DNA of 64,000 nt, taken from positions 15,200,974-15,264,973 of the forward strand of contig NC_135259.1 in assembly GCF_964204865.1 (NCBI RefSeq). Reading direction: 5' to 3'. The stretch comes from Styela clava. Lineage: Eukaryota; Chordata; Ascidiacea; Stolidobranchia; Styelidae. Of the stretch, positions 296 to 42,087 are shown piece after piece; the first letter of the stretch is position 1, and each line of letters begins with the position of its first letter. The notes below the pieces were generated by a model that was not told the DNA's origin, did no database searches, and saw only the letters and a program-made list of their open reading frames with translations. A program made the translations under genes and the position numbers.

Positions 296-1040
296 TCATT
301 CAGGAATGTTAAAGAAAGCAACGTCCATGCCTGGGAAAAAAATATATATATTTAGCATGAAGCTATAAAACTAAATAAGCTACGTAAGTAAACCACCTTC
401 GCTGAGCAAACTCCTTCTTTATATAAGAAGTCATACCAACGTTGAACTTCAATTTACCTGGATAGTACCCCATTCATAAAAACCTATTACTCAGTCTTTT
501 GAAATAAATCTTACCTATATCACTTTGCGTATCGTCAACAGATCTTTTCTTCTTTACAGACCACGGAGTGCCTTCAGGAAATCTTAAAATGTACAGAAAA
601 ATATATAACTATTGCATTTTCGGTACACCCGTAGTATGTGTACCAGGTTAGGGTTAGGCCATAATTTTATTTTGATTTCCCTTATTTTAGTTCTACTACG
701 AGTTTGGGGACTGTCTGTGATAGCCATGTGAATTTACCTCCTACCCATAGACTTCAGTACCTTTACACAACTTGATTTAAAATAGGCGAACAAAATTAGT
801 TACCTCCATATTGGTACACATACTTCTGGAGCGCCAACTTTTCAGTAACAACTGACTAAATATTATATACCACCGAGTATGTTTGTAATCTTGCAATTTG
901 ATGATATGATTGTTTCACCTAACATGTTATGAAAACACTTCAAAAACTTACCTTGTTGGACCTGCATCTGTTAACTGAGCCGCAATAAGTATTGCAACAC
1001 ACATCATCAACACCGGAAACAACAGTTTGAAAGTAGCCAT
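296..1040 (-). CDS. Small secreted peptide precursor, paralog C (3 exons)
   Basis: Exons on minus: 1040-952, 582-515, 330-296; together 192 nt, 63 aa. Exon 1 starts MATFKLLFPV and is almost entirely a hydrophobic signal peptide, ending GPT plus two bases (phase 2) at a GTAAG donor. Exon 2 reads through PWSVKKKRSVDD, with a KKKR basic cleavage site, and ends in phase 1 at GTAAG. Exon 3 follows a pyrimidine-rich acceptor and encodes GMDVAFFNIPE then TGA. An AATAAA signal lies on minus at 174-169. Exon number, both intron phases, the Trp before the basic site, the KR-Ser-x-Asp motif and the Asp-Val-Ala of the last exon all match the two genes at 3.1 and 6.6 kb, which is strong support for an otherwise tiny gene. 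Family not recognised; a secreted, furin-type processed peptide is inferred. Confidence 0.72.
608..836. repeat. MITE-like repeat, 'accaggttagggttaggcc' family, long variant
   Basis: About 220 bp with accaggttagggttaggcc near one end, a middle with acgagtttggggactgt, and an aacttgatttaaaatag segment near the other end, closed by ttggtacacatac. It lies in intron 1 of peptide gene C. Related copies are at about 18540-18740 (opposite orientation), 22797-22975 and 28796-28978. The last two are one insertion copied by segmental duplication. Confidence 0.7.
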
Positions 1041-3104
1041 ACCCGATTTTATAGGCTCCTCTTCAGTTTAGTTATTAGAAAACAATTTTCTAAAAATGAA
1101 ATAACATAGATTTCAATCATGATGCCAAGAAATAATCATGTGTTTTTATTTATTCATTGAATATCATGCAAATGAAGTCTCAATTTCCAAACTTCACTGC
1201 CCAAAGTTGTGCATTCGAATATATTTCAAAGATATTGAGACATCACTTGAAACCTCAATACAAAAATATTTATTATCAATTTTGTACTTCTCTAAATACA
1301 TAAAAAAAAAATAAGAAAATATCTCATCTATAATATAAATGAACAAGCAAACTCAATCTTTAGTTCTCATAACATCAGTGCCAACCAGGAAAATATAGTA
1401 ATACAAGGTAAATGAGTTCCTAATGAAAAAGAAATAAAATACGGTATAACAGACCCCCATATCACAAAGGCAATGATACCAACATAAGGAAGATCGGAAT
1501 TCAGAATGATTTTCAGCATATTGTAATTTCAATTTATAGCATTTGAATCCTTTTGATGGCTTAATGATTTGATTCCAAATATCTTACAGGTATGAATGTG
1601 TATTGGGAATCTGAGTGGTATTTGCGTTCACGTTCACTTGAACTAAAGTGCTTCAGATTATTGGTGATGGTGAATTAAGATAATTATACATTGGTGATGG
1701 ATACATATCTATCACGTCAACCCTATCCTTGAAATTACCTCCCATTAGCCTCCCAATACCACGTGACATTACACTTTTAAATTGCAGTAAAAGAATCTGC
1801 AAATCACTTTGGTATAATTTGGAAACTTGTATTTCCGTGAGTGTTGTGAAATTACCCCGTTCAAGTAGTTAGTAGGCAACCATTTCGTACATTCAAGTAA
1901 CGAATTATGAAGAGCATTGACATTTCGAGAGTTGAGTAATTCAACGTCAAATATTTTGTCTGTTAATGAAGTTGTACAAATGGTCGAGTATGAGCGGGTA
2001 ATGATTTTGCATAATTTAATCATGTGATTATATTTAATCATTGAACGCTGGTAACAACCAATTATGAACTTAGTATTCAAACATCACTACTCCAAATTGC
2101 TACATTTCAATATAATTAGATGATATAAAGAAACCTATTAAACCATCAATGCAGAAGAGCATTTTATATCCTCACGAATCATCAATCCTCGTGATATCAA
2201 TTATTTGTAGTATACTATAATCTACGAAATTACTGTAGTCTACAAAATTAATGTTGTGCTGTAATGATTTACCTTCACATTATGTAATTATATGATGCTC
2301 CTGTTGCATATCAATCTGATGTATTCAAATACAAGCACATATAGGGAATTTCTTCTTGGGCAGTTTAGAATTATCTCGTGTATAAGTATATTCCTAAAGA
2401 AATCTTTCGGACGATTGCATTAAAGTTGAGATTGTCTTGTAGTTTATTTCTTTGCCATAATTAAAAATTGTGAAGACAAAATGTTACAAAAAAAAAAAAA
2501 CTCTCGTAATAATTTAAAACCTATGACCTCACTTCTTTAGATACCCTTAAAAACAGAAAATACCTTTCATTCCTAATTTAATTTATAAGATTACTATCGA
2601 AGAACATTAAAGGATAAATAGTAAGTTTGTCACACAATGTAATTCGAACTTAATATTTTAGACGACTGACTGAATGATACATTTCTGCTAAATTATTTTA
2701 AAAAAATACGGATGATATTTAAAAAAAAAATCAGATTATGGTCATATTCCCTTAACATTAAGAAGTAGATGATAATCTATGCTTGGTGCGCCAATGAATA
2801 AATACATGTGCTTCTAATTCACACTTTGAAAAGTAGTAGTACTCTTTTGAATGATCTGTTTTTTTTTACAAAAGTTTCAATTTAAAGACATAAAAATATT
2901 TATCAGCTCAAACAAACGGTCTGATACATTTTAAAAGCAAAATTTACTCACAATTTCACGTTTAAGTCTGATAAATTTAATTAATTTGTAACGCACTTGT
3001 TCATACAGAAGAGGTTTGTATTACGATTTGGTGATTTACAAGTAAAACCTTTTTATTCGGACTAATCATATTTGCACAGTATGAGATTGTTCCACGATCG
3101 TAGC
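1041..3104. other. Intergenic, no gene seen
   Basis: I see no supportable gene between the divergent peptide genes C and A. From about 2000 the sequence is the left part of a duplicated unit whose second copy begins near 5325. Short ORFs here lack splice context or homologs in the other copy. Confidence 0.5.
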
Positions 3105-4210
3105 ATGAATTTAAAAATCTGTTGCACGTTTTTTATAATATGTACACTGATGATCAACATGGTAAACTCAGCTCAAAGTATTGTAGATGAAAATCAGAAA
3201 TCCTCCCCGCCAGGACCAACTACAAGGTATCCAATTGAAATGTTACATTTAATATTAATCAATAATAGAGATTAATATTGCATTTTCATCTTATTTGTTT
3301 ATTCAATAATTTTCCAAGTTTAGAGATTACTGGTGCAATTAAATTCAATAAATCTCAATAGCGGAAGTTTTTAGATGTGAGACTGAGTTGCTGAACGTTA
3401 AATTTGGGCAAAAGTACCAAAATAAAACAAAAAAAGTGTGTAGGTGTTTGCACATCTTTTTGGCAATGATGCAATAACGCGAATCCACCTAAGTTTATTC
3501 TAAACAATAAAATCTACTTTTTGCTAAATTGTTTATGATTGTTCTCGATCAGAATAGCTACTCCGCGGTGGGAGGGAAAGCGAAAAAGATCAATTGTTGA
3601 CGAGTCAGAACAACAAGGTAACATAATAATTTGGATTCATTAAAATATTTTTTTGTCATTTTATTGAAGAAACAACTTTTTGTGTTAATTTTGCGTTCAT
3701 GATAATTTCATGTTTGTCCGAATTTTGTACCAATATTATAAATTACAGTTTGGATTTGTCATTTTAATAACCTAACGATTGTCCCTCTCTAATAAAAATA
3801 ACAATTTAACAAAAGTTAAATTTTTAGATGAAGATCGTAAAAAGTACTTTTCTCATTTTTTAGAAAAACACAATATGACTAATTTCACTGATATGAAATA
3901 CCCCACTGTTAAGTCCCAGAAGTCCAAGTTAGATCATCTTTCTTCGCTCCTGTTTATTGACGAAATAAAATTATTACACAATATTGGTTTCTATCCTTTT
4001 TTTCTTTTTTGGAATATGTTCCGCAGATTCTGGTTTCATCAAATTCCATGCAAATATTGCAGCTTGAATTACTATACTATATGCATTGCAAGCGTATATT
4101 ATTTGATCACGTGGTTATTTTAATTTTAGCAAACGAAATCATTTCAGTGGTTTACTATTTTATATTTTACAGAACGAGACGTTGCGTCGTTTGAGGAAAC
4201 AACTTCTTGA
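3105..4210 (+). CDS. Small secreted peptide precursor, paralog A (3 exons)
   Basis: Exons 3105-3226, 3553-3617 and 4173-4210 give 74 aa. Exon 1 begins MNLKICCTFFIICTLM, a signal peptide ending near NSAQ, and runs to PGPTT plus two bases (phase 2, GTATCC donor). Exon 2 carries ATPRWEGKRKRSIVDESEQQ with the basic site KRKR before Ser, phase 1 out. Exon 3 encodes ERDVASFEETTS then TGA. AATAAA is at 4278-4283. An in-frame ATG at 3081 would add eight residues; I chose 3105 because the paralog at 6566 starts there and has no upstream in-frame ATG. The predicted C-terminal peptide after KRKR is acidic. Unknown family; a role as a processed secreted peptide is inferred from signal peptide plus basic site. 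Confidence 0.78.
3770..3990 (+). other. Insertion inside intron 2 of peptide gene A with a short open frame
   Basis: Comparison with intron 2 of gene B shows about 200 extra bases here. They contain a lysine-rich open frame (including KVKFLDEDRKKYFSHFLEKH) that has no start, no splice support and no recognised homolog. Most likely a fragment of a mobile element; this is inference. Confidence 0.35.
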
Positions 4211-5324
4211 TTATGAAACTTATGTAAAATGTCATCTTTATAGTTTGTTTATTGTTTTGCAAATACATTCATCTGAAAATAAATTTCCGACTACTTTTTT
4301 GAACAAAATTTATAGAAGAGGCTTTATAGATTTAAAATTTGAATTAGAAAACTTGAAACATAACCTTGCCGGCTAGTGGTAAATCTGAGAATGGAAGTTA
4401 CTGCTCTAGTATTATATTTTTTATTTACTTGTATCTGATATAAAGATACAAAGTTGTAAAACAAACAAAGACGAATATATGTGCATCTGGGGTATAGCAC
4501 AAGTTCTGGAACAAATATAGTATTAAATGAATCTTTAAATTAAATCTGACACAGTGATTATTTAAACAACTCTAATATGAAATGAGGAGAGCAGAGCATG
4601 GGCAAGTGCTCTATACCTAAACCGCAAAGTATTTTGTTAAGACACGTCGATTTTTTTGGATAATTATGTTTTTATTGAGTTTGAAAAAGTGTTGAGTTAT
4701 ACTCGTAGTGATTTAATTCTACAGCTAAAACCAACGATTAAACAATTTCTAGACATATAACACATAATTTTTAAAAACTGATATATCACTCGGTCAGTCA
4801 TTATATAATCCTAACTATTAGATTTCTTGTGGCATAAATATGTTAATTAAGTGACATTACAAATGTGCAAACACCAAAAAAAAGCATCCTAATAGAATGA
4901 ATAATCGTGAAATTACAGGTAAATTCGGATCACGTTTCCTTTAATTACTTAAATTATTTTTCGTGCAATAAATTCCGAGTTTGGCAATAGCATGGAACTT
5001 CAAGCTAATAGTAAGATAAAGCTTTTGAAAACGGATTTATCGCAAAATTAACGTTGCGTTGTAAGTTTGATTTGATGAAGAACGCAGTCTGTGATGATTG
5101 TTCTATTTTGTTTTAAGTCAGATCTTGCCAAACTGCTCCAATTGCAAATTGGTTTGGAGAATCTTCTTTATTCACACACATCATTCATGCGATTCGCCAT
5201 TATACAGCACACAGCGCTATTTAAAGTTTAAACGATTTAAACGTCGTGACACATATGATTTTGCATGGGCATGTTGGAGAATGATAATTTCATTTTGATT
5301 GCAGAAGTCAAGCATTTCAATAGT

Positions 5325-7890
5325 CAATGCTTAATTTAATCAAGTAATTATATTTAATCCTTGAACGCTGGTATCATGCAATTATGGACTTAGTATTCAA
5401 AATTGCTACATTTCAATATATTTCGATGATATAACGAAACCTATTAAACCATCGATGCAGAATAGCATTTTATATCCTCACAAATCATCAATTCTCATGG
5501 AATCAATTATTTGAAGTAAATGATCTGCAAAATTACTGTTGTGATGTAATGATTCATTCTCACTCACATTATATAATTAGGATGCTCCAATTCATAATAA
5601 TCTGATGTATTCAAATAAAATCACATAAGAGAATTTGTTTTTGCGAAGCCCAGTATTATTTCGTGAATAAGTATATGACAGTGTAGATCATTCACATGAT
5701 TGTATTAGAATTGAGATTGTCCTGCAGTTTTGACCTCTTTTTATGTCGGGGTTTAGTGTTTCAATAGCTTTTTTCAATGTTTGTTGAGAATTAAAAATTG
5801 TGAAGACAAAGTGTTACAAAATGGAAGAAACCTCACATTTAAAACCCATGACTCCGTCAAATAGTGGTTGACTAACAAGTTTCGGCTTTATACCGTATAG
5901 AATGATAATTTTGTGTTACAGCGATGCAGAAAATGCTTTGCGGAAACCAGCCAATATTTGAATTATTTTGTTTTATTTTTTAGATACCCTTAAAACAGAA
6001 AATACCTCCAATTCATAATTCAATTTATAGATTACTACCGAAGAGTATTGAAGGATGCTATAAATAGCAAGTTCGTCACAAAGTGTAATTCAAAAATCCT
6101 CTTAATCTTAATATTTCAAAACCGACTGACTGAATGATACATTTTTGCTAAATTATTTAAAAAGACGGACAATTTCATAATAAAGTTTTCAAAAAGCAGC
6201 ACATGGTCATATTACCAAAATATCAAGAAGTTCTTGGTGAGCCAATGAATAGATTGATGTATGTTCGATTCAAATTTTCACAAGTATAGTTGTACTTTTT
6301 CAATTGGTGTCAATTTTGTTTCACAAAACTTTTAATATAAAGATGAAAATAATAATCAGCTCAAACAAATAAATGGCTTGAGATAATTTCAATGCGAAAT
6401 TCTCGCACAATTCCAACTCTCTTTGCCAATTATTTTGGGAATATATACCAAGTCTGTTAAATTTAGACACAGATTTGGGGCACGGATTAGTAATTTACAA
6501 GTAAATTGTTTTTATTTAGAATTAAATATTTTTACACAATATAGAACCTGTTCTACGATCAAAACATGAAGTTTCAAATCTGCTGCGTGTTTTTTATAAT
6601 ATGTACGCTAATGATTAACATGGTAAACTCATCTCAAAGCAGTGTAGATAAAAACCAGGAATCCTACCCGCCAGACCCAACTACAAGGTATTCAATTAAA
6701 ATGTTTCATTTAATATTTATGATTAGCAGAGATTAATATTGAATTTTCCTCTTATATATTAAATGATACCAAGTTAAGAGATTATTTGTGCAATCAAAGT
6801 TTATAAATGTGGTATTTAGTTGCTGAACGTTAAATAAAGCAAAAGTACCAAACAAAAACAATGAGTGTGGAAGTCTTTCCACATCTTTTTGACAATGGCA
6901 ATACCGCACAACAAAAATGCACCTTTCTAAATTCATCTTGAATGAAAAATAACAAAAGCTATTGTTTGGTAAATTATTCATGATTGTTCCCAGAATGGCT
7001 ACTGCGGCGTGGAAAAAAAAGCGAAAAAGATCAATTGTTGATCAGTCAGAACATCAAGGTGAATGAATACCTTTTTTGCAATTTTCTCAACTAACAATTT
7101 TTTGTATCATTATATATTCAGTCCCGCATATTTGCTTTCGTGACGGTTTCATGTTTGTCTGAATTTTGAACAGATGTTTTAATATATATTTGGATTTTAC
7201 ACAATAGTTTTTGGTTTTCCCACTCTTTTTTCTTAGAATGTTTTCGGAGATTCTTGTCTTATGAAATTCCATGCGAATCTTAAAGCTTGAATTGATAAAA
7301 GCAGTGTGCATTGCACACGTATATTATTTGATCAGGAATTTGTTTTGATTTTATCACATGAAAACATTTCAGTAGTTTATTAATTTTTTTTATATTTTAC
7401 AGAAAGAGACGTTGCGTCGTTTGAGGCAACAACTTCTTGATCATGAAGCTTTGTACAAAGTCATTTTCTTAATTTGTATATTTTTGTTTTAATACCTTCA
7501 TCCAAAAATAAATTTCAGACTACGCTTTTTGAACATAAATTATAAAAGAGACCTTGTAGATTTTAAAATTTGAATCCAGGAACTTTAAACCAAACCCTCG
7601 TGGTAATTTGTAGAACTGAGAATGGCAGCTACTGCCATAATATTATATCATCCATTCCCCTATATCAGATACAAATATGTAAAATAAACAATGACAAACA
7701 TATAGCACAAGTTCAGCTTCTGGGACAAATATAGTATAAAAACGAATATTTTAATTAAATAGGACCCAGTGATTATTTCATCAACGTTAATATGAAATGA
7801 TCAGAGCATAGGCAAGCGCGCTAGAACCAAACCGCAAAGTATTTTGTTGAGGCACGTCGAATTTTTAGAACAATTGTTTTTTCATTGAGA
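5325..7890 (+). repeat. Tandem duplication unit 2 (carries peptide gene B)
   Basis: Second copy of the 2000-4680 unit, same orientation. It includes gene B and matching flanks. It has its own short insertions, for example around 5745-5790 and 5865-5975 relative to unit 1. Confidence 0.85.
6566..7440 (+). CDS. Small secreted peptide precursor, paralog B (3 exons)
   Basis: Exons 6566-6687, 6994-7058 and 7403-7440 give 74 aa, the same exon lengths as gene A (122, 65 and 38 nt). The signal peptide starts MKFQICCVFFIICTLM; exon 2 reads MATAAWKKKRKRSIVDQSEH; exon 3 reads ERDVASFEATTS then TGA. AATAAA is at 7507-7512, about the same distance past the stop as in gene A. Of 74 aligned residues, 18 differ from gene A, concentrated between the signal peptide and the basic site. 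The KRKRSIVD block and DVASFE are unchanged. All splice sites and the frame survive despite many intron differences, which indicates the gene is kept by selection. Function unknown; processed secreted peptide inferred. Confidence 0.8.
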
Positions 7891-10784: not shown

Positions 10785-11337
10785 TAATTGTCAATATTTT
10801 GGTGAGATTCCATGAATATGTTCAATAAAATTACAGACAAATGTTGTTTCTTCAATTTGTCTATCCTAATTGTAGCTATCGGCATCCTGTATAGAGGGAT
10901 ATACCATAGAAGAAAAACTAGATCTGATAGAGAAAAAGTAACAGCATTTCTGGAATCAGCGCCCTGCTAAAAACGTTTAAAACATCTTAGGCACCATGAA
11001 TAAAAAAAAAAATTTTGTCGGCCAGTGCTATTTTAACTATTGAGATTCGGCATCATTTCAAAACTTCCTTTTCTCAAATTTAGTCAAAATTATTCACAAC
11101 TAAAATTTTAACGTAATTGACATTACCAATATAATTTAGTTGATAAAACCGCTTGATTACTAAAATTTACTGTCTCCTTGATCTTGAATGGCAAACCAAT
11201 TAGTTTGTCATTTGTAACATTCTTGTAAAAGCATATATATATACTGTTGAAATGTGTCTCTTGGATTTGTTGAGTTGGTACATGATGCAAAAAAGATAAA
11301 AGCAGTGGTTGAATACGTTGATGAACATGCCTTAGAC

Positions 11338-12580: not shown

Positions 12581-12586
12581 ATAGAG

Positions 12587-15498: not shown

Positions 15499-15619
15499 CT
15501 TTACAGGGATTAGTATTTGTTTGCAGTAGATTTATGGTTTTGATAATTACTTGGAAAAGTGAAAAGAGATAAATTTACAATTCGCTTTTTGATCAAACTA
15601 AACTATGGGTACATCGGAA

Positions 15620-15708: not shown

Positions 15709-15724
15709 ATAAACACGATTAAAA

Positions 15725-23047: not shown

Positions 23048-24070
23048 ATGGAGCAATTCTATAAAAATGCAACTAGATCATATTACAATGTAAACGAAAC
23101 TTCATTATCACCAACCCATGAACCAAACGCAGCGATGTATTGGACCGTCTTCATCATTTTAACTGTTGGGGTTGCAGCGAGTGCATTGTACCTGTTCGTA
23201 GTTTTCATTCATAAAGAGATCAACTTCACTTCACGAAAAGGAGACTCTAAAGCTGTAATGTTGGCTAAGATAATGAGAGTGGTTAAAATTTTTATGACAT
23301 TATTCATATTTCTTGAAAGTGTTACCAGCGCAGGTTTTAGAGTGTTTTCTTATAAAGGTATCCCTGGATATTGCTACATCGGAGAAATAAGTAAGGGGGC
23401 ACTAGCAAATGTTGGGAGCCTTGCTATATATCTTATATTCTGGCTCAGACAAAGAATGTTATACAATAACTCAGTACTGCGGGATTTGACAAATGTTTTC
23501 ACCCGAACCCTAAGTGCTGCTGCGCTATCGTTAATTGTTATATGGCATGTTGGTATCGGTATTGTATTTTCTATGATTGATCCCATTTATGAGATTGTAA
23601 ACTATGACTGTAAGCTTGTAGATAGTGATAAAGTTATGACTATGGTATGGATTGCACTTTTTATCACAATTATTCTTCTTCAATCCATACTACTATTTCT
23701 TTTCGCCCACCCGCTTTATAACCATCGAAAAGAGTCAAAATGGATGAATAATGATAAGAAAAACACGAATGATATGCTTCACGTCCTACAGCGGGCGTTT
23801 GCTTCAGCGCTAGCGTTTGTCATTTCCGGAGCTCTAATAAATTTTATTAGCGGATTTGTAAAACATGATTGGGTTGGACCAATTCTCTACTCCACAGGAC
23901 AATTCATCGACCTTGTTGTTGTAACTTTGTCATTTACTGACTGGAAACAAACGGTGATGCCTTGCTGTACTGAACCAATTAATCAATTCTCATCCACACG
24001 CAACACTACACGAACATGTGCATTATCCATGCGTGTTATGCCGAATTCAACATCAAATCCGCAGAAGTAA
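23048..24070 (+). CDS. Orphan 7TM receptor R1 (intronless, subfamily 1)
   Basis: 340 aa in one exon. Start chosen at 23048 (MEQFYKNATR) because R5 at 39 kb starts at the equivalent Met; an ATG six bases upstream is also in frame. The N-terminus has NAT and NET glycosylation sites and no signal peptide. Seven hydrophobic segments lie at about residues 31-54, 76-98, 113-133, 154-174, 198-221, 249-270 and 276-297. Cys109 before TM3 and Cys188 in the loop before TM5 could form the usual GPCR disulfide. WLRQR follows TM3, where class A receptors have DRY; HPLYNHR ends TM5; SFTDWKQT ends TM7. No class A signature (DRY, NPxxY) is visible. I infer a lineage-specific GPCR-like receptor, ligand unknown. 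Plus-strand gene facing R2. Confidence 0.85.
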   Translation: MEQFYKNATRSYYNVNETSLSPTHEPNAAMYWTVFIILTVGVAASALYLFVVFIHKEINFTSRKGDSKAVMLAKIMRVVKIFMTLFIFLESVTSAGFRVFSYKGIPGYCYIGEISKGALANVGSLAIYLIFWLRQRMLYNNSVLRDLTNVFTRTLSAAALSLIVIWHVGIGIVFSMIDPIYEIVNYDCKLVDSDKVMTMVWIALFITIILLQSILLFLFAHPLYNHRKESKWMNNDKKNTNDMLHVLQRAFASALAFVISGALINFISGFVKHDWVGPILYSTGQFIDLVVVTLSFTDWKQTVMPCCTEPINQFSSTRNTTRTCALSMRVMPNSTSNPQK

Positions 24071-27500: not shown

Positions 27501-28490
27501 TTAGACTGCTGATTGCGTCGTGTTGGTTGTTGAGGTAACATTCTTGATTGCACGGGTCTGACTCTTCCAACAAGGCATTACGGTGCTTCTCCAATTAGGG
27601 AATGAAATAATCATGAATGTAAAGTCCGAAAATGAACCAATAGTGCGGAGTATCGCAGCTAACAAACCATCAGCGATCACTCCACTGACCAGAAAAAGCA
27701 TTCCACTGAAAAGGACAAAGCCTACCGTTGCAAACAAAGCACGTTGTAATACGGGAAGAATATTAATTGTATTTGCATTATTCATAAATTTTACTTCTAT
27801 TCGATGCTTATACAGTGGGTAGCTAAAAAGTAGTAATAATGATGTCTGAAGCAAAAGTACGACAGCAAATATAGCAATCCAGGGTATCCCTGTAAAAGAA
27901 GTTTGTTCCATGACGGTGCATTTATAATTTACAAATATGTACGTTTTGTGTGTCATTGCAAAGGAAATTGCAATCCCAATATGTAGTAGAGCAATCAAAA
28001 ATATCGCAGCCCTGCTTGCAACACGAGTGAAAGCATTTGTCAAATTTTCCAGAACAGGATTGCTGTATAAAACTCTTTGCCTTAGCCAAAAGAAGAAAAA
28101 CGTACCGAAGCTAACGGAATTTGATACTACACCTTTGGCGGCTTCAATGACGTAACAATGATTCTCCGTATAGTAAAACTTAGTTGTCATTTCTTGTCCA
28201 AGAGCGATAGCACTCTCGATAAACGTTAACAGAGTCACAATAATTTTAGCAATTTTTGAAAGCTTTGCCAAACTCCCAGTACCATGAGTCTTTCCTGAAC
28301 TTTGATCCTCTCTTAACTCTTTCAAAATAAGAACCAGCAAGATATATGCTGTAGTTGCTACGACTCCAGATACCAAAATTATGTAAATGATCCAATAAAT
28401 AACGATATGCCTCTGTTCTTCGCTGCTTCCAGAAGAAGAGTTAACCATATAATAAATTAAGCTCGTTGAGTTTTCATATTGAGTCTCCAT
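27501..28490 (-). CDS. Orphan 7TM receptor R2 (intronless, subfamily 2)
   Basis: 329 aa on minus, start at 28490 (METQYENSTSLIYYM), stop at 27501. Subfamily 2 differs from R1 by a shorter C-terminus and by the cytoplasmic loop KTHGTGSLAKL, but keeps the family plan: Cys in HCYVIEAAKG before TM3, FWLRQRVLYSNPVL after TM3, a loop Cys in VNYKC before TM5, SYPLYKHRIEVKFMNN after TM5, VLQRALFATVGF at TM6 and ISFPNWRSTVMPC after TM7. N-glycosylation sites NST and NSS are at the N-terminus. Most similar to R4 and R6. The left boundary of the second duplication unit lies only about 25 bp beyond its start codon, so R2 lacks the upstream region that R4 and R6 share and may be driven by different sequence. 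Confidence 0.85.
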   Translation of the reverse strand: METQYENSTSLIYYMVNSSSGSSEEQRHIVIYWIIYIILVSGVVATTAYILLVLILKELREDQSSGKTHGTGSLAKLSKIAKIIVTLLTFIESAIALGQEMTTKFYYTENHCYVIEAAKGVVSNSVSFGTFFFFWLRQRVLYSNPVLENLTNAFTRVASRAAIFLIALLHIGIAISFAMTHKTYIFVNYKCTVMEQTSFTGIPWIAIFAVVLLLQTSLLLLFSYPLYKHRIEVKFMNNANTINILPVLQRALFATVGFVLFSGMLFLVSGVIADGLLAAILRTIGSFSDFTFMIISFPNWRSTVMPCWKSQTRAIKNVTSTTNTTQSAV

Positions 28491-29039: not shown

Positions 29040-30045
29040 ATGAAGCAATTCTATAAAAATGCAACTAGCTCATATTACAATGTAAACGAAACTTCATTAT
29101 CACCAACCCATGAACCAAACGCAGCGATGTATTGGACAGTCTTCATAATTTTAACTGTTGGGGTTGCAGCGAGTGCAATGTACCTGTTCGCAGTTTTCAT
29201 TCATAAAGAGATCAACTTCACTTCACGAAAAGGAGACTCTAAAGCTGTAATGTTGGCTAAGATAATGAGAGTGGTTAAAATTTTTATGACATTATTCATA
29301 TTCCTTGAAAGTGTTGCCAGCGCAAGTTTCAGAGTGTTTTCTTATAAAGGTACCCTGAATATTGCTACATCGGAGAAATAAGTAAGGGGGCACTAGCAAA
29401 TGTTGGGAGCCTAGCTATATATCTTATATTCTGGCTCAGACAAAGAATGTTATACAATAACTCAGTACTGCGGGATTTGACAAATGTTTTCACCTGAACC
29501 CTAAGTGCTGCTGAGCTATCGTTGATTGTTATATGGCATGTTGGTATCGGTCTTGTATTTTCTATGATTGATCCCATTTATGAGATTGTAAACTATGACT
29601 GTGAGCTTGTAGATAGTGATAAAGTTATGAGCATAATATGGATTGCACTTTTTTTCACAATTATACTTCTTCAATCTATATTACTATTTCATTTTGCTCA
29701 CCCGCTTTATAAGCATCGAAAAGAGTCAAAATGGATGAATAATGATACGAAAAATACGAATGATATGCTTCACGTCTGACAGCGGGCGTTTGCTTCAGCG
29801 CTAGCGTTTGTCATTTCCGGAGCTCTAATAAATTTCATTAGCGGATTTGTAAAACATGATTGAGTTGGACCAATTCTCTACTCCGCAGGACAATTCATCG
29901 ACCTTGTTGTTGTAACTTTGTCATTTACTGACTGGAAACAAACGGTGATGCCTTGTTGTACTGAACCAATTAATCAATTCTCATCTACACGCAACACAAC
30001 ACGAACATTTGCAGTATCCATACGACATCAAATCCGCAGAAGTAA
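29040..30045 (+). pseudogene. 7TM receptor R3, pseudogene of R1
   Basis: Copy of R1 inside duplication unit 2, starting at the equivalent ATG (MKQFYKNATSSYYN). A one-base deletion near 29350 (where R1 reads GIPGYCYI) shifts the frame, and premature stops occur in place of Arg at about 29492, at the LQRA position (about 29777) and in place of Trp at about 29861. A short deletion lies near the C-terminal end. The rest is still very similar to R1, so inactivation is recent. Confidence 0.92.
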
Positions 30046-31805: not shown

Positions 31806-32795
31806 TTAGACTGCTGATTGCGTCGTGTTGGTTGTTGAGGTAACATTCTTGGCAGCACGGGTCTGACTCGTCCAACAAGGCATTACGGTGTTTTTCCAAT
31901 TAGGGAATGAAATAATCATAAATGTAAAGTCCGAAAATGAACCAATAGTGCGGAGTATCGCAGCTAACAAACCATCAGCGATCACTCCACTGACCAGAAA
32001 AAGAGTTCCACTGAAAAGAACAAAGCCTATCGTTGCAAACAAAGCACGTTGTAATACAGGAAGAATATTAATTGTATTTGCGTTATTCATAAATTTTACT
32101 TCTATTCGATGCTTATACAGTGGGTAGCTGAAAAGTAGTAATAATGATGTCTGAAGCAAAAGTACAACAACAAATATAGCAATCCAGGGTATCCCTGTAG
32201 AGGAAGTTTGTTCCATGATGGTGCATTTATAATTTACAAATTTGTACGTTATATGTGTCATTGCAAAGGAAACTGCAATCCCAATATGTAGTAGAGCAAT
32301 CAAAAATATCGAGGCCTTGCTTGCAACACGAGTAAAAGCATTTGTCAATTCTGTCAGAACAGGATTGCTGTATAAAACTCGTTGCCTTAGCCAAAAAGAA
32401 AAAAACATACCGAAGCTAACGAAATTCGATACTATACCTTTCGCAGTTTCAATAATGTAACAATGATCCGGTGTATCGTAAAACTTAGTTGTCAATTCTT
32501 GCCCAATAGGGATAGCACTCTCGATAAACGTCATCAGAGTCACAATAATTTTAGCAATTCTTGAAAACTTCGCCAAACTCCCAGTACCATGGGTGTTTCC
32601 TGAACTTTGGCCACCTTTTATTTCTTCCAAAATAAGAACCACCAAGGTATATGCAGTAGTTGTTGCGACTCCAGATACCAAAATTATGTGAATTATCCAA
32701 TAAATAGCGACATGCCTCTGTTCTTCGGGGCTTTCAAAAGAAGAGTTCACCATATTATAAAGTAAGCTAGTTGAGTTTTCATATTGTTTCTCCAT
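31806..32795 (-). CDS. Orphan 7TM receptor R4 (intronless, subfamily 2)
   Basis: 329 aa on minus. The open frame extends 74 codons upstream to 33017, but I place the start at 32795 (MEKQYENSTSLLYNM) because R2 and R6 begin at the same Met and the upstream residues do not look like a receptor N-terminus. Motifs: HCYIIETAKG with Cys before TM3, FWLRQRVLYSNPVL after TM3, VNYKC in the second extracellular loop, YPLYKHRIEVKF after TM5, FPNWKNTVMPCW after TM7. The protein is close to R6; their upstream flanks (32.8-34.1 and 44.65-46.08 kb, inverted) are also duplicated, so both may share promoter elements. Confidence 0.86.
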   Translation of the reverse strand: MEKQYENSTSLLYNMVNSSFESPEEQRHVAIYWIIHIILVSGVATTTAYTLVVLILEEIKGGQSSGNTHGTGSLAKFSRIAKIIVTLMTFIESAIPIGQELTTKFYDTPDHCYIIETAKGIVSNFVSFGMFFSFWLRQRVLYSNPVLTELTNAFTRVASKASIFLIALLHIGIAVSFAMTHITYKFVNYKCTIMEQTSSTGIPWIAIFVVVLLLQTSLLLLFSYPLYKHRIEVKFMNNANTINILPVLQRALFATIGFVLFSGTLFLVSGVIADGLLAAILRTIGSFSDFTFMIISFPNWKNTVMPCWTSQTRAAKNVTSTTNTTQSAV

Positions 32796-34816
32796 GTTGA
32801 ACAATGAAAACGGTAATCCCAAATGCCTGTTTATAGTTTGCTCGATTTGATTTTGTCTTAAATATCTTATGCTCTGATGTGAACTCATCAATATCATTAA
32901 GGAAAAACCCTGTATAATATTTATATTTAATTTGAAGTTCCATTCTTCCAACAATCGTTTTTGCATTGTACAAACATACAAATACTGTATCATTACTTTA
33001 AAAAAGAAAAAATGCACATCAATTTACGCAATGGGATTATTAATTATACAATCAATTGATAAATCCTTTTGTATCAATGGTTCAATTGCTTGAAATTCCA
33101 TCCTAGCAGCATGAAAATTCGTGATATAACTGCCAAAAGCAAGTTCATGATTCTGCAATTACATAGGTATATACTACTCCGTGTGATTTCTCTAGCTTTC
33201 TTGCAATTGATTTGCATATCAACTTTTAAGACGACCTATTTTGTTTTTTCGGGTTACTTTTTGAAATTGCACAATTCCGGATAACTCTTTTGAAAAGTTT
33301 AATTACAGAAAAATTATAAACATCGTAAAATATGCTTAAACATCAAATGATCCATTCGAAGCATAACATTACTGTTTAAACAATTGGAAAATTACATACA
33401 AAGTATATTCGAGAAAAATAAACACAACCCCAAGTGATTTTCGAGATTTGTACAAGGTATGGCGAATACTCATGATTATTGCATTTATCATTTTGATTTT
33501 TTTTTATGTACGAAAGTGAAGATATGTTATGTCAGCATTTTTCAGAAACTGAATACAGCTTCTGCGAAAAACGAAATATTTGTGTCATAATAAAAAAAAA
33601 CTTGGTAATATTCAAATAATTTGAGCAATGATTTTGGTTGTTTCGGTATAGTTACAAACACCACAAATACATCTCTTCATGGAAAATACTTGTTTATTAC
33701 TTTTCGGAAATGAAGATCGTATGTGTTGTAATCAACACGACGGTCAAAGAGTTCGGACCAGGCTAATTTTCTTTATTTCAACAACACCATTTACCGTGTC
33801 ATCAATTTTTATACACTTTAACTGTGTTCCTAATTTAGATGCTCAAAATTGAGGTTATATTGCATCTACTTTAGCGGTACAATTTTTTATGTTGACCAAT
33901 CTATTGTATTAGAAATGTTGAAATGGATCGAGATAAAAATATTCATGTGGGCAATTGGACGCTGTTTCTTGTTGGCACTGATTCATTGATCACTCTCATG
34001 AAACTGGCGATAATAGTGCCGGTAAATATGATAGTATTTTAAAGGGCACAAACACTGACGAGCAATTAGTCTCGAGGAAACCTTTCTCGAGTTTTAACAT
34101 GACGGTTTTTAATATTTTATTTTCGTATTCTCTGTGGTGAGGCCTTTTGAACACATATTTCGATACATATGGATTTCCAAAATTACTTTAAATTCAATGC
34201 TCCAAATTTGACAGTGTTTCATAACGGTTTCGACTGTAGTTTTTATGTCAAACTTCTTTAAAATAATAAATCTAGATATTATCAATTTTAACTCAGGGTT
34301 TCTCGAGGGCATATATACGTCATTTTAAATTTTTGATACTTCTTTTACATAGTTTGTATTTGTATATTATACTGAGTCAAGTGTGTACGTAACTGTAAAA
34401 CTATGGTCTGTGTTTAAAATAAGCCTTGTATTCATGGTCATCATGTATTACATGGCACAACAAATATGTTACACCAATTCCTTGAAAGGTTGAACATCTT
34501 ATTCATAGATTTTCAAAAGCCAAAATGGTATTTTGCTATTTCTTAGATAGGCTGTATACCTGATGTTCTCAAGATTATTTTGACACATATTTTAAAGTAC
34601 ATGAAGTACATATATATACTCTGGTTATGTTATCAGCTTTATATCTTTCACGAATATTGATGTTCGGAATCGTCGCCTTCGTTACGAAGTGCAGTGGATT
34701 GTCTCAATATTTAAGTTATTACCCTGACATGTGATTATCGATTACTAATTAAAGACCTGAAATTATTGCAATATATCAATCTGATATTCCGTCTACTGTT
34801 TCGAAGAAAGATTTTT

Positions 34817-35358
34817 CAAAAAATTTCAAAAAACTTCGAAAAAAAGTTTCTCACTTTTAACGCTGTGGTCGACACGTGATTGATATGCGAGAGAAAGAGT
34901 TCTCTTTTAGAAGAGCTTTACGTCGCCTTCAAAATAAAACAAGAGTGGGATTTGTAAGTGAAGTGATATTCGTTTTATCGAAGAGCATTTGATCGCGTGC
35001 TGTCTGGTATCTTTGTTTGTTTATTATGAGCCGGAGAACGTTGCTCGCGCGTTCAAAATACTTCGTTTTCAACTAACAACAGATTCTTTGTTTATTTTTA
35101 AGCTTTGAAATACTCATACAAATAAAATTGACCTTGTTGCAAAATGAAAATTATACATAAAAAAATGTGATGACGTCACCGTAATTAAGAACACTCGAAT
35201 CAAGCCTGGCTAATTTAAACTCAAACATTTTGAGTTTTGAAATTGGTTTTGTTCACATGCAGACCACTATGAAATACTATTGACCCCCCAAAATACATTT
35301 AATTCAGCCATAATTCCAAATTATGACACAGATTAGCCATTTAAGACCAGGCCGATCC
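34817..35358 (+). repeat. Dispersed repeat, copy 2
   Basis: Same orientation as 12040-12580. Absent from the inverted paralog near 53.95 kb, whose flanks join directly, so this is an insertion after or during duplication. Confidence 0.75.
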
Positions 35359-36136
35359 TATTGGGTTTTAAATAAAAGTCAAAGAAAGTCGCTCTTCTTT
35401 CGTGTCCAGGGAACCACACGAAGTAATGTGAGACATACCAACAAACTGCTTCTAGATTTGATGTTAAAACTACTCGGAAGATGGAATAGTTAAAACTGTC
35501 ATGAACATAATTTATTTTCCTTTAATTACAACTCAATATAACTGTTCCGGTATACACGAAACCCTTCGACGTAAACTGGCTGAAGATCAACTATGACTTT
35601 ACTTGATTTATGACTGTTCAGTACAATATAGTGAATTTTGGACTTAACTTTTGATTTAATAAAAAAACGCTTGAATCTGCAATAATAAAAATATTAGATA
35701 TGAGATGTCCCAATATCTTTTTCTGAAACGTGGCATTTGATTGTAGCCGCAATCGTAATCATTTGAAAGAGCCAGTTTTCATAGTTTAATTTGAATTTAA
35801 TTAAACCTTCAAGTATTTGAGCTTGTAAATTTTTCTAGACAATAGTAAGTTTTGTCATCGATATATTACATATATTTTTGTCCTAAAAAGTAATTAGTAA
35901 ACGTAAGCGATATCTGCGATAAAAACAATGAACGGAGGTTTTATGTTCCCGTCCAAATCTGAAAACATAATACCTGCATGAAACGCGCGTTTGTGTGGCA
36001 AAATGTTTTTTCTAAAACAGTAAACCAATCACCTAATGCAATTTCATTTTTTTCGGCTGAATATTTAATTAAATTCGTGTGAAATTACAAACGCTTTTCA
36101 TGTAGATGTAACGAACGATTCTTAGAATATAAATGT

Positions 36137-36348
36137 ACAGTCTCGAAGAGTTGAATAATCAGAATTGATACAGATGAACATATATACAAAGCAACTGCGG
36201 CGTATTTTTCATGCTTTAACCAGCTTAAAGTCTCAGTCTCAGCCTGGTTTATTACTTTAATGTGAAATACCCTCTCTTCAGTAGCAACAACGCACGTTGG
36301 TTCTTAGTGTCAAGTGCTGCCTGCACAACTTCAAATTCCCTATCCGTG
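36137..36348 (-). pseudogene. Decayed copy of the membrane-anchor exon at 49862
   Basis: On minus it reads VVQAALDTKNQRALLLL, then GYFTLK followed by stops, and further on LKHEKYAAVALYICSSV. These match the 49.9-kb exon in order. The acceptor AG at the 5' edge has become GG and the middle of the exon carries stops and a frame change. Confidence 0.75.
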
Positions 36349-38025
36349 AAATGTTTTCAAATACCCGGTAGAATTTGGACGTCAGCAAGTAGTGTGAATT
36401 TATATTTGGCTTATATAGACCAGGGTTTCGGGATTAAAAAGGTTTTGGGGTGTGGGTAAACCCGGAACATTCTTACAGTAAGCCAATGTACGTCGAGTTA
36501 TCAGTGAATCGCTCAGTGAATAGAGCAGACTAGTGTTGACAATGACGTATGAGTTTGTGTCTGCACTGCAAATCACGCAAGATCGCCTTAAAAAATAAAA
36601 ATTCATTTGAAAATTAGGGCGGGTGTGGGGTCGGGGCATGGCAGGCTTGATTTTAAAGTCGACTTATGCCCCTAATTAGACTTGACCTGCGATTCGGGCT
36701 TTGGGAACGCCTAACGAACACAGTATTCGACGGCATCCATGGTGAAATAGATGGGGGCTCCTCAAGCTTCGCCCAATTAATGTGAGTGAAAATGGGTAAA
36801 CCAAATCCAGGCTGTGCGTTTTTCATTCAATGCTCTATATATATTGGATCGTACATCTTAAAAACATTTGTTTATTTATTCAGCGTTTATTATTGTTTAC
36901 ATAGCCTTCCCAAAGCGATCGTATGCACGCAATAATTAGGTATTGAGAGATAGATAGGAATGTAGAACGGTTTTATTTTATGTTAAAGGAAGCTAATGAG
37001 TGTCTCTGTGTGCGATTAACAGCACTTATATCTTGTTTTTTTTTTGTGTTGTATTTTTGATTTAATAAAACTACTGGCGATAAGGTTATATTTTTAGTGT
37101 AGGCTATTTTGCGGGTTACATCAGGGCTATGTTTTTTTTTTATCCATAGCCTTATCGCTTTCTATCGGCTATTGGCTTTATCAAACATTTTGCGACCTGC
37201 TTATTACTTTGTAACGAAAGAGTATCAGAGCGAACGCAATTCATTTAAGAACCAGTGGTATAAAGGAGTATGTCCCTATATGCTTATCCTTACCGCGTAT
37301 TACTGCCGTTAGTAGACATCCGCTATAGCGGAGTAAACCCCAATCTGAACAACTCTGAGATCAGAAGCACATAATATATTGTCGTGATAAATGTTTGTAT
37401 ATTGTAAAGTTACACGATCGAATTGAATCCAAAACATATATTGAAATACACACTTTAATATTAATACCAGTAATATGGTTCAAATCCAAATATGTAATAA
37501 TGCAAAAACATGAAAAACACCATTTTCAACTTTCAAACACGTCACAAATAGGTTGATACAAAGAAAGCTCTGCATAAAGAGTAAATCTTTCGCAGCGATA
37601 AATCACCATCAGGAAGATTACTACAATGACCTATCTTCATTGAATTCAACATGCTATTAACACAAAGGGGTTAAATAACATTAAAAAACATAGGTATAAT
37701 CCACACGCTACAGGGGACGGAAACTTAATCCTTTCAAAGCTATGGAATAGTCTGCAGTCTTTTCAACACGACAATAAGCATATACAAAATATAGAAACAA
37801 ATAAGGTTGCAGATGGAATTATATTGCACTTTTCCAAAAGTAACAGCGTGTGTTACATATTTTAGTCGTTCTTCAATTAAGCACATTAAATTGAAAAACA
37901 AGTTCGGGGCTAGTTTTCGGAGATTATTCTAAAAGATCTGCGTATGTTGCATCAAACAGGTTTTTGAGGTCTGTAATATTACAAGCACCTACCGTAATAT
38001 ATTACTATTCTTATGTCTATTTAGG

Positions 38026-39048
38026 CTATTTCATGGGATCTGCCTTTGGTTTTGCAATAACACTGAGAGAAATCCGAACGGTTGATTTCATTGTGTGGCT
38101 ACGTACAGTAGCGGATTCTCCTGCTCTTTCTGTTTGACGGAATAGAACTGTTTGCTTCCAATCGGAAAAAGACATTGTAACAATAACAAGGTCGCGTAAT
38201 TGGCCTATCGAATGAAGAATAGGTCCAATCCAATCATGTCTAACGAACCCACCAGTCATATTAATTACTGCCCCAGAGATAACAAACGCTAACGTCCCAG
38301 CAAATGCTCGTTGCATCACAGGAAGCAAGTCGGCCATGTTTTTATTCTTCATCCACTTTGATTCTATCCGGTGCTTATAAAGTGGATGTAGAAAAAGAAA
38401 TAATAATATTGATTGCAGGAGAGCAACTGTGACAAGGAGTGAAATCCATACCAGGCTTGTAATTGTACCACTAACCATGAGCTTACATTTGTAATTTACT
38501 ATCTCATGTATGAAAGGAACCCTAGAAAATGTAACACCAATTCCAATATGCCATATTACAATAATTATGATGGCGGTAGCACTTAAGGTACGAGTGATAA
38601 CATTGGTCAAATCTTTAAGCACTGGGTTTTTGTACAACAGTCTTTGTCTGAGCCAAAATATAACATAAATATTAAAGCTTCCAATGGTTGATACTGTTCC
38701 TGTTGCTAATTCTTCAATGTAGCAATAATCAGGATTGCCAAAAAGAGACAAAATTTTGAAACTTGCATGCGTAATGCTGTTAATGAGTACAAAAAATGCC
38801 ATTGAGATTTTAATCATTCTCATCAGTTTAATCGATGTCTTGCCTTCAGCTTTTTGTCTTCTTTGAGTAAAACTGATTTCTTTATAAATAAACGCGCTAA
38901 GGATGTACGTTGCAATCGTCGCAACTACAAAAGTCACAATTATATAAATTGTCCAGTACACCATTGATTGTTCTGGTGTTTCCGTGGTCGAACTCGACGA
39001 CGTCCAATTAAACGTCTGATTAGTTGCATTATCATAGTATTGCTCCAT
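38026..39048 (-). CDS. Orphan 7TM receptor R5 (intronless, subfamily 1)
   Basis: 340 aa on minus, starting MEQYYDNATNQTFNWTSS with NAT, NQT and NWT glycosylation sites. It is the more diverged partner of R1, with the same length and motif order: DYCYIEELATG (Cys before TM3), FWLRQRLLYKNPVLKDL after TM3, VNYKCKLM with the loop Cys, HPLYKHRIESKWMKN after TM5, VMQRAFAGTLAFVISGA at TM6 and SFSDWKQTV after TM7. The tail is Ser/Thr-rich and basic, offering phosphorylation sites. The frame is intact although it is well diverged from R1, which argues that subfamily 1 is functional. It lies alone between the two inverted arms. Confidence 0.87.
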   Translation of the reverse strand: MEQYYDNATNQTFNWTSSSSTTETPEQSMVYWTIYIIVTFVVATIATYILSAFIYKEISFTQRRQKAEGKTSIKLMRMIKISMAFFVLINSITHASFKILSLFGNPDYCYIEELATGTVSTIGSFNIYVIFWLRQRLLYKNPVLKDLTNVITRTLSATAIIIIVIWHIGIGVTFSRVPFIHEIVNYKCKLMVSGTITSLVWISLLVTVALLQSILLFLFLHPLYKHRIESKWMKNKNMADLLPVMQRAFAGTLAFVISGAVINMTGGFVRHDWIGPILHSIGQLRDLVIVTMSFSDWKQTVLFRQTERAGESATVRSHTMKSTVRISLSVIAKPKADPMK

Positions 39049-39587
39049 GTTAAACGCTGTCAGTATAATTTTAAAATCAAAATATTTTTAAAACCTCAAC
39101 TTCAAAACGTCAAAGTTAAGAAATATGTTTCATGAGAAGATGAAGTAATGGCTGCACTAACTTAAATACTTGTCTTCCACTAAATTGCTCTTTTCTTCGC
39201 GTGCAAGTTGAAATCAGTTTCAAAAAGGCTTAACAATATTTTAATTTTCATATACAGGCAAATTGATCATTAAATAAGAGAAAATCAGTAATCACGAGAA
39301 TGAACATGTATTATCTACTTTCTTAATAACCGTATATGTATATGCTTATGTACTCTAAATAAAGTATTGTTTGGCATAATCACACAGCGTATACAACGCC
39401 ATTCCATCGATTGAACATTACGTACCAATTTTCCAAATATTTTGAAAGTGATAACCAGCCTTGAATACCGTAATCATTGAATTTTAATAATGCATTGTTG
39501 TTTCGTGAATACAATAATACATTCGCACTAGATTCTAGTATGTTCTAGTGACAAGAACATAAGAATATTCGAAACTGTAAACCGAAC

Positions 39588-39845
39588 ATGAATCGACATA
39601 CGACATGGTCAATTTTTTATTTGAAAAAACCTTACATTAAGAATTATGCTGTTATTTGTCGGATTATTTACATGATCTTGAAAACCGGTATTGTAACAAT
39701 TACAACATATGTCTTGCTGTTCCTCATTCCTAAAAAAAAAGTAAGTAAAAAATCAGGAAACTCGAATGTTACCAGCAGGGATTTGGCGAATATTTTGAAA
39801 ATTACTAAAATTACTGCTAAACGCTATGGGCTAATGTGGTTATAT
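39588..39845 (+). pseudogene. 7TM receptor relic (TM1 region only)
   Basis: An 86-codon frame whose middle (IIYMILKTGIVTITTYVLL, then RDLANILKITKITAK) lines up with TM1 and the first loop of subfamily 2 (IIYIILVSGVVATTAYILL; SLAKLSKIAKII). No TM2-TM7 follows. A truncated remnant, divergently oriented to R5. Confidence 0.65.
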
Positions 39846-40876
39846 TGATATCCCGTCCACGAAATAAACTGATTTTATTTTGTATATGAAAATCATCGCC
39901 ATCGCGTTTAATTAGCCTCACAAATGTTTTCAACAATATTTATTTCAAATTGAAATATTAATTAGAAGTGATATCCAAATAATTTGAATTAAGTAATACT
40001 TTGTAAAAAAATAGTATAAATTGTTCAAGTGACCAGAGGCTCAGTAAAATTCTCCATTTTGGTTAAAAGGTTGATCTTTCATATGTCATTGATTTGAATC
40101 AGAACTTATAGAGTCATTTGCAGATGGATTATAAGATTTAAGCTTTTTAAGTGGCCGATTGGCCAATAATGTTATTCAATATCAATAGCCATTTAAAAAA
40201 AATTTGCATCGATTGTTTGTACGACTAAAATTAATTAAAAGGTAAATGTATTTCACTTGGCAAAGCTTTATTAAACAACTGTCTGAAGTTTTAGGAGCTA
40301 TGTAGTGAGGATTAGGTGAGGAGCGCAGGCTTTCGATTGATTTTGCACAATCAAATACGAATACTGCAAAACATAGTCTAGATCTGTTAACATTATTACC
40401 TCTAAACATAATAGTTTGAAAAAAAAAACAGTCTTCATCATTTTTGTACTAAATGTTAATCATAAATTGTCAATAACAAATTTGTTCGAATCTTGGATAA
40501 TTTTTTTTTATAAATAAACGAATTAGTAGAAAAATATATTTTTTGAACCTTTTCGCATCGGTCCCGAAATATGTTGTTTTCACGCTCGGTATTCTCACTT
40601 TTAAATTTATATACTATTTGCTCCAAATTAATAAACACCGGTCTTATTATTTTTTCAAAGAATCTGAACGCAAAATTGTGAGACCTTGATAATACTGTGC
40701 TGTATTTATAATACGGTTCTCCTTTTTTATTGGACAGTCCTATTTTTCGTATAATCATCTTATAAGTTTTATGGAAAACACGATACTGAAAATTGGGAGA
40801 CCTTGATAAAACTGTGTTCTTTTTATACTGAACAGGTCTATTTTTCGTATAATCATATTACATTATTTGCGAAAAG
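39846..40876. other. No gene
   Basis: AT-rich sequence with a short imperfect direct repeat around 40675-40760 and 40790-40855 (gagaccttgataa, attttcgtataatcat). Nothing else supportable. Confidence 0.45.
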
Positions 40877-42087
40877 ATGTTTTTAGTTCATTTCGTACTA
40901 AGCTTGATTATGACACAACTAATAACGTGTCTGGAAACGCCCTCTGAACCTACAGGTAAATTTGTGAGTTTTTAAAAATTATATATGTATTTATTATGTT
41001 GGTCGTTAATTTCGGAATAAATAGGATAGGATTTTCAAATTCATCGTGGTGAGAAGGAAAGCCGGTGAGACGAATTAACCTTATTTCGATCCACGGCCTC
41101 TCGTCTGGTTAACAATCCAAGTCGGTATGGCATTGATTAACGTTGTTTGTTTCAGATGCATGGATTTGATAGTGTAGGAACACACATGATTACTCCCCAC
41201 GGGTTTCAAACCCGCGAACACACGCAGGGTAATCATAGGTGCGATGACAAGCGTATTCGTAACGCATAGCACGATACGCCATCTGATTTTCTGCGATCTA
41301 ATAATACTTAAATTCTCATAAATTAAGTCGAATGTGTAGCATATAATAGAACAAATTATTCAGATTCAAATCGCAATTTTATTTTATTAAACTGCGTTTT
41401 ACTTACAGAGACTGATGATTTAAATTTTCACTTTGTGGAAGTCAAAGAAGTACACCACTATACTACACCGTAAGTTTCAAGTCAATTATTTTTAAGAAAC
41501 TGCCCAGTTTTTTTACTATCCGGCAAAAGTATATTTGTTGTTGTTGATTATTACAGTCATTTTATAAAATATCAATTTTAAAATTTAAGAAGTAAATCGA
41601 AATTTTATTGCAGTTATATATATTTAGATTTACGAACCATTTCGTAATAAATCACATGTGCACACGCCCGATGTTTCATGCAATCAGATTAGGTGGAAAA
41701 TCTAGATATGGAAGAAATACTATTTTCATGAAATTGAACAAAAATTATAAACCATGTTTTGAGATTCAACCGCCACAAATTCAGCTATTGATATAAAGAT
41801 ATTTGTTTTTATTTGACATTTGATATATTTGTTGAATAAAACAAAGTAATAATATTTTTAATATTTTATTTTCCATTTATTGCTTCAAGACTTACATCTG
41901 GAAAACTTACTTCGTTTGAACGCGCAAACCCAAACTTTTTATGGAACAGAAGAAAGCGGAGTGATGATGAATTATGGGCAGGTTAAATTTAAAAGTGTTC
42001 TTTGGGTTAAAATATTTTTAACATTTATCTGAGTAAACGAATTTCACTATTTTGTTTTCAGAAAATGCAGATATTCTGTTGGATTGA
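40877..42087 (+). CDS. Small secreted peptide precursor, paralog D (4 exons)
   Basis: Exons 40877-40955, 41409-41469, 41890-41981 and 42062-42087 join in frame to 85 aa. Exon 1 is a signal peptide (MFLVHFVLSLIMTQLITC). Exon 2 (ETDDLNFHFVEVKEVHHYTT) is extra relative to genes A-C. Exon 3 enters in phase 2 and leaves in phase 1, as exon 2 does in A-C, and carries NPNFLWNRRKRSDDELWA: Trp, a basic site RRKR, then Ser-Asp-Asp. Exon 4 encodes ENADILLD then TGA, matching the short acidic last exon of the family. AATAAA is at 42127-42132. Placed between receptor genes R5 and R6. Function unknown; the shared cleavage motif and phases make membership in the A-C family likely despite low overall identity. 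Confidence 0.68.
41085..41285 (-). repeat. tRNA-derived SINE, copy 2
   Basis: On minus: atggcgtatcgtgctatgcg (A-box region) and gttcgcgggtttgaaaccc (B-box region). Related to the copy at 17172-17285. Lies in intron 1 of peptide gene D. Confidence 0.6.
41628..41796 (+). other. Possible alternative last exon of peptide gene D
   Basis: After an acceptor ending atatatttag, the phase needed by exon 2 opens a frame of 55 codons that includes RLGGKSRYGRNTIFMKLNKN and YKPC before TAA at 41794-41796. Basic and glycine-basic motifs resemble peptide processing sites, but a stronger acceptor 14 bases upstream is out of frame. It may be only intron. Confidence 0.25.

Follow-up and report, generated by a model that had tools for sequence, protein, structure and literature searches.

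Do four very small genes in one 64,000-nucleotide (nt) stretch of the Styela clava genome form a family of secreted peptide precursors and, if so, what would these precursors release? The stretch (C13:15200974-15264973, hereafter the window) belongs to a genome of 376.6 Mb in 379 contigs. An earlier note on it had described genes A, B, C and D as tiny precursors, each with a signal-peptide exon, an exon in which a Trp is followed by a basic cleavage motif, and a short acidic last exon. Shared structure, paralogy, clustering and conservation of the reading frame support a real family that is much larger than four. Our reading, to which we give a probability of roughly 0.6, is that A, B and C, and probably D, would be clustered precursors of secreted peptides, processed by convertases, with an acidic tail as the product and a birth-and-death mode of evolution.

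A clustered family of small multi-exon genes

Genes A, B and C each consist of three exons whose joined frames are intact and encode 74, 74 and 63 amino acids (aa), respectively. All of their junctions are GT..AG, and the introns are in phase 2 and then phase 1, as the note had claimed. The AATAAA hexamers that it placed close behind three of the genes are likewise present, 67 nt past the stop codon of A, 66 nt past that of B and about 40 nt past that of D; for C, the nearest AATAAA or ATTAAA lies 121 nt behind the stop. Nonsynonymous (dN) and synonymous (dS) divergence between A and B are 0.134 and 0.237.

Over all six frames of the window, the pattern [KR][KR]KR[ST]x(0-2)[DE] occurs four times, and the four sites are those of genes A-D. 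Every site has a Trp no more than six residues upstream and both splice signals, AG and GT, in phase. Simulated windows (150, third-order Markov) contain 0.17 motifs on average, and none of the 150 has a motif with a Trp and both in-phase splice signals, a chance test that is partly post hoc because the motif was taken from the original finding. Better tests are the loci outside the window, namely 25 further exon-2 loci and a distant gene, R, that was found blind.

A search of the genome with B returned another copy, which lies some 72 kb beyond the window. The 280 kb around this copy were read and scanned with an exon-2 profile, which gave 31 matches; two were dropped as non-family. The resulting 29 family loci, window genes included, occupy about 136 kb (C13:15.107-15.243 Mb), and the window holds one end of this cluster. 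Complete joined frames are obtained for 23 of the 29, comprising 22 three-exon models and the four-exon gene D, and 19 of the 25 loci outside the window have a complete three-exon model. With each group in turn left out of the profile, at least one member is found below an E-value of 0.02 in nine of the ten cluster groups, D being the miss. When the precursors of B, H, P, S and N serve as queries, genome matches at E <= 10 fall only in this stretch of C13, the best candidates having been scored.

For the blind search, a 23-base pattern corresponding to P-W-x-G-K-K-K-R was run over the whole genome, with its reversal as the control. The pattern matches eight times and the reversal not at all. 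Seven of the matches are cluster loci and the eighth, at C13:2409894, lies 12.7 Mb from the cluster. Read by eye, this last locus (R) is a complete three-exon gene with the intron phases of the family, in which a signal-like exon is followed by RHPSPPSPSPWSG-KKKR-SIELNEDDIE and then by (E)MEVIFELDDA. Profiles built without R find its exon 2 at E = 4.5e-7 and its precursor at E = 4e-10, with 0 of 500 shuffles scoring as high. As a tblastn query the R precursor finds only itself in the genome, and its kinship therefore rests on profile and architecture. With 29 cluster loci and R, the family far exceeds the four genes of the earlier note.

Alignment of seven paralog pairs gives 171 differing sites out of 1560 for the exons and 772 out of 3829 for the introns. 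Out-of-frame events make up none of the five exon indels, compared to 44 of 61 in the introns. Among 16 pairs, not all of them independent, dN is lower than dS in 14; the two others, F1/F2 and H1/H2, are nearly identical and show no synonymous change at all, and S1/S6 is a near tie (0.040 and 0.042). Duplicated non-coding DNA, with decaying or chance exons that stay open by accident, would account for the shortness of the frames and for the copies that are clearly broken, but neither the frame-preserving exon indels nor R, a gene of the same build found blind elsewhere, fits this explanation, which we regard as highly improbable.

Gene D is the least regular of the four. The three exons assigned to it by the earlier note do not suffice. 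Its signal exon has a phase-1 end; the frame is intact only with a fourth, extra exon of 61 nt, and the four-exon product is 85 residues long. The Trp-basic exon and the phases around it stand. Against a whole-precursor profile D scores 5.8 bits, more than all 500 shuffles, yet weak. We keep D as a tentative family member on architecture and motif, and it probably belongs with A, B and C in the clustered family.

Other features of the cluster are recorded here in their own right. A recent segmental duplication at C13:15117.8-15136.2 kb has copied a block that contains F, H and J genes, the copies standing about 10-12 kb apart, and one J copy within it has lost its start codon. A stray first exon containing stops is located at 15110732. 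H and I show apparent GC-AG introns at a common CAG|GC site (C13:15120.8, 15132.7 and 15142.4 kb). Intron 2 of gene A contains a 115-aa open frame (window 3776-4123) that spans a stretch of about 218 nt absent from B; DNA resembling this stretch seemingly lies beside an A-like fragment at C13:15128.7 kb, judged by eye only. Gene B may have lost the stretch that is present in A.

Precursor anatomy and likely product

By hydropathy, exon 1 encodes a hydrophobic N-terminus. All 15 representative precursors have a basic run with [KR]-K-R and, behind it, a tail of 15-26 residues that is net negative in every case and devoid of Cys. Close to invariant are the columns for an Arg by the border of exons 1 and 2, a Pro, a Trp, and the Lys and Arg of the basic site. 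A Gly directly precedes the basic run in eight representatives and is absent in seven; to our knowledge, an amidation Gly is not universally required among prohormones.

In the reading that we favor, the signal-like segment of exon 1 would take the precursor into the secretory pathway, exon 2 would provide a Pro/Trp-rich middle and a basic site of the furin/prohormone-convertase type, and exons 2 and 3 together would encode the short acidic tail. Cleavage after [KR]-K-R would free this tail as an acidic peptide that starts with S, N or D and acts extracellularly. Through local duplication the genes would arise and be lost again, a pattern expected for peptides that signal to other cells, individuals or microbes. 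We infer secretion, cleavage, the active product and its function from the sequence, and the tail is favored as the product because every representative has one.

The precursors could also be neuropeptide-like, with the middle Pro/Trp segment as the amidated active product (e.g., ...PWS-NH2 or ...PPWP-NH2) and the acidic tail as a discarded spacer, a fate that acidic spacers have in many small prohormones. One cut would then follow the conserved Arg close to the border of exons 1 and 2 and another would fall at the basic run, with trimming to the Gly. This main rival draws on the Gly of the eight representatives and on the near-invariant Arg, Pro, Trp and K-R columns; we consider it rather unlikely, with a real chance of being right. 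Since the Gly occurs in about half of the representatives, a second, amidated ...W-x-NH2 peptide could form beside the tail, and the peptide starting at the Ser after KR, which the earlier note had put forward as the product, is one of two live options. Summed over the seven pairs, divergence is 102 of 242 residues (0.42) for the signal and pre-region, 29 of 65 (0.45) for the middle and 58 of 138 (0.42) for the tail, and with such equal divergence conservation cannot settle which part acts. The claim that the propeptide diverges fastest is correct for A and B, where the middle differs at four of seven residues and the tail at three of 21, and fails in the sum over the pairs. Precursors of the tunicate host-defence type would instead combine a cationic mature part with a polyanionic C-terminal propiece. 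Tunicate antimicrobial precursors do have anionic parts, and such a family would fit the birth-and-death clustering and the placement of an acidic tail after a basic site, but the N-terminal product here would be short and Pro-rich, with much of its positive charge in the basic run itself, and we judge this alternative quite improbable.

Several observations weigh against clustered, secreted precursors with the acidic tail as their product. Signal peptides were judged by hydropathy only, the tail is conserved no better than the middle or the signal, and for F1/F2, H1/H2, J1/J2 and C/G dN is larger than dS when only the mature part is counted. Only part of the gene, or an altered form of it, is present at six of the 29 loci. 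When D is left out of the exon-2 profile, it is missed (nothing at E <= 100 in one run, E = 20 in another), and with the J/S/O group left out only four of its ten loci are recovered, with E-values of 0.0066 to 1.1. The S group lacks the Trp, and the H and I genes need a GC donor at intron 2. Finally, the cluster-wide modelling sought phase-2 acceptors and phase-1 donors only and scored exon 3 partly by acidity, so that for the genes seen only there the agreement in phase and the acidity of the tail are in part a product of the modelling; a later modelling round took most exon 3 positions from the acidity-scored one. With all phases allowed at 13 loci, the top-ranked acceptor is in phase 2 at 12 of them, and the top-ranked donor is a phase-1 GT at ten (the others are H1, H2 and I). 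Without the acidity bonus, the same exon 3 is ranked first in nine of 11 complete genes and second for I and B. Exon 3 is conserved within the paralog groups A/B, F/G, H, S/J and P.

Receptor-like neighbours and other features of the window

Gene D lies among genes whose predicted topology looks seven-transmembrane (7TM). The window contains five intact single-exon genes of this kind and a broken copy, with 38-85% identity to one of them (Table 1). Genome-wide, the family gives at least 122 matches, and the largest other group is a set of 15 at C16:3.02-3.09 Mb. The predicted model of one 7TM-like gene has seven long helices, the fourth and fifth of them separated by a hairpin, with a mean predicted local distance difference test (pLDDT) score of 40, too weak to use. 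Searched with this low-confidence model, Foldseek returns nothing at E <= 0.001, and G-protein-coupled receptors account for 44 of the best 50 of its 104 weak matches; neither result is evidence. Pfam gives no family over the cut-off for three 7TM-like genes, and PDB sequences give nothing meaningful for one.

Six 7TM loci, one of them broken, are found within 24 kb (15.224-15.248 Mb) at the right end of the peptide cluster, around gene D, and a broken copy lies at 15.113 Mb within its left end. The probability that a random 140-kb stretch holds at least six 7TM matches is 0.0008, a post hoc value based on 120 of the 122 matches, and the co-location of peptides and 7TM genes is suggestive only. 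By analogy to the layout of fungal pheromone/receptor loci, the cluster might be a ligand-receptor supergene in which rapidly diversifying peptides are the ligands of orphan 7TM receptors that cluster and diversify with them, allowing individuals or gametes to recognize one another. We consider this unlikely. Only one locus elsewhere, at C3:23.9 Mb, carries a close 7TM relative, and the 30 kb read there contain no peptide exon. D, the sole peptide gene between the 7TM genes of the window, is the weakest member of its family. Both facts speak against a supergene.

Table 1. Features of the window and altered cluster loci. Positions are those of the window, except for the six partial or altered loci, which are numbered on C13.
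Feature	Position	Strand	Remarks
Gene C exon 1	952..1040	-	Start codon and signal-like segment; phase-2 end
Gene C exon 2	515..582	-	PW-SV-KKKR-SVDD; phase 2 in, phase 1 out; leave-group-out profile E 0.0026
Gene C exon 3	296..330	-	GMDVAFFNIPE stop
Gene A exon 1	3105..3226	+	Another in-frame ATG at 3081
Gene A exon 2	3553..3617	+	RWEG-KRKR-SIVDESEQQ; leave-group-out profile E 1.4e-5
Gene A exon 3	4173..4210	+	(E)RDVASFEETTS stop
Gene B exon 1	6566..6687	+	
Gene B exon 2	6994..7058	+	AWK-KKRKR-SIVDQSEHQ; leave-group-out profile only E 0.39; clear paralog of A
Gene B exon 3	7403..7440	+	(E)RDVASFEATTS stop
Gene D exon 1	40877..40955	+	Tentative member; phase-1 end
Gene D exon 2	41409..41469	+	Extra exon, required for the frame; phase-2 end
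Gene D exon 3	41890..41981	+	FLWN-RRKR-SDDELWA; phase 2 in, phase 1 out; missed by the profile without D
Gene D exon 4	42062..42087	+	(E)NADILLD stop
7TM-like gene	23048..24067	+	Single exon, 340 aa
7TM-like gene	27504..28490	-	329 aa
Broken 7TM-like copy	29040..29378	+	Initial open segment; further along, the homology returns but contains stops
7TM-like gene	31809..32795	-	329 aa
7TM-like gene	38029..39048	-	340 aa
7TM-like gene	46085..47071	+	329 aa; beyond gene D
Partial or altered locus	15107526		Last exon of the group not found within 900 nt
Partial or altered locus	15116889		Exon-2 fragment
Partial or altered locus	15125608		Start codon gone
Partial or altered locus	15128696		No convincing first exon
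Partial or altered locus	15166580		Last exon without stop across the 160 nt read
Partial or altered locus	15196584		First exon out of frame, in-phase acceptor absent

Elsewhere in the window, two adjacent open frames (51169-52838) form a probable transposable element, the second with a sub-threshold match to DUF7869 (E = 4.7e-4, 20.2 of 26 bits). A 266-aa frame (54750-55550) features a hydrophobic segment and a Thr/Asn-rich stretch, and this stretch is a 63-nt tandem repeat of 3.5 copies (54990-55212). Eight window frames show no Pfam family over the cut-off, and Rfam and tRNA scans give no matches. A search of the assembly for COX1 gives no match. The Ciona-type spliced leader is not a repeated element in the genome (two matches, against one for a control). 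One GH6 exon in the genome exceeds the Pfam cut-off (E = 1.5e-6). This single exon makes a tunicate host probable, and the spliced-leader result adds nothing to that assignment. Published papers on tunicates describe GH6-1 as well as a cellulose synthase that contains a GH6 part (PMC7464555, PMC6523144, PMC10334666), and one of them states that no cellulose synthase gene has been found in any other animal (PMC7464555); we infer that GH6 is absent from non-tunicate animals.

Relation to known families and systems

Annotation easily overlooks genes whose exons span 20-120 nt and whose products stay below 90 residues. That more than 20 such genes form a cluster for which no family match was found suggests that non-model animals have entire repertoires of secreted peptides still unseen. 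The locus provides a defined peptide set and, next to it, receptor-like genes on which these peptides can be tested, as well as a sequence rule for ortholog searches in related genomes (a Pro/Trp segment, [KR]n-KR, and phase-2 then phase-1 introns).

Nine precursors, A and R not among them, have no Pfam-A family over the cut-off; the one match, of B to YxzE, is sub-threshold (E = 0.013, 17 of 40 bits). PDB sequences give nothing meaningful for R, and the Cys framework of Cys-rich toxins and defensins is absent from the tails of all 15 representatives. Among the top-ranked papers of the literature searches, made in a library with few subscription journals, none describes such a cluster in its title or the start of its abstract. 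The proposal of an undescribed processed-peptide family thus agrees with the databases and literature covered, the processing being read from sequence, and the genes appear to be a new family of a known kind of secreted-peptide precursor that we have not found described.

A parallel among tunicates is the Ciona-specific hemocyte peptide CiEMa, in the accessible part of its report a small, secreted, lineage-specific tunicate precursor without known relatives (PMC10888236). The unusual cuts inferred for CiEMa lie between Trp and Asn and between Gly and Asp rather than at a basic site, and that part of the report mentions no cluster; compared by description only, the two differ in both respects (PMC10888236).

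In its layout the family resembles small single-product prohormones of the GnRH-/NPF-like type, with which it shares a signal-like exon, one basic site, a short acidic C-terminal piece and small size and, in eight of the 15 representatives, the Gly before the basic site. Such prohormones are arranged as signal, peptide, basic site and flanking acidic peptide. Unlike them, the genes described here form a large tandem cluster, lack a universal amidation site and, for the nine precursors searched, have no Pfam family match. The clavanin, styelin and Ci-MAM antimicrobials are also small tunicate precursors with an anionic part, whereas the present precursors have no obvious cationic mature segment and carry the acidic tail behind the basic site. 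Rapid birth and death of tiny, clustered secreted-peptide genes is a trait that the family shares with the mouse ESPs, from which it differs, by description, in having 7TM-like genes both inside and beside the cluster.

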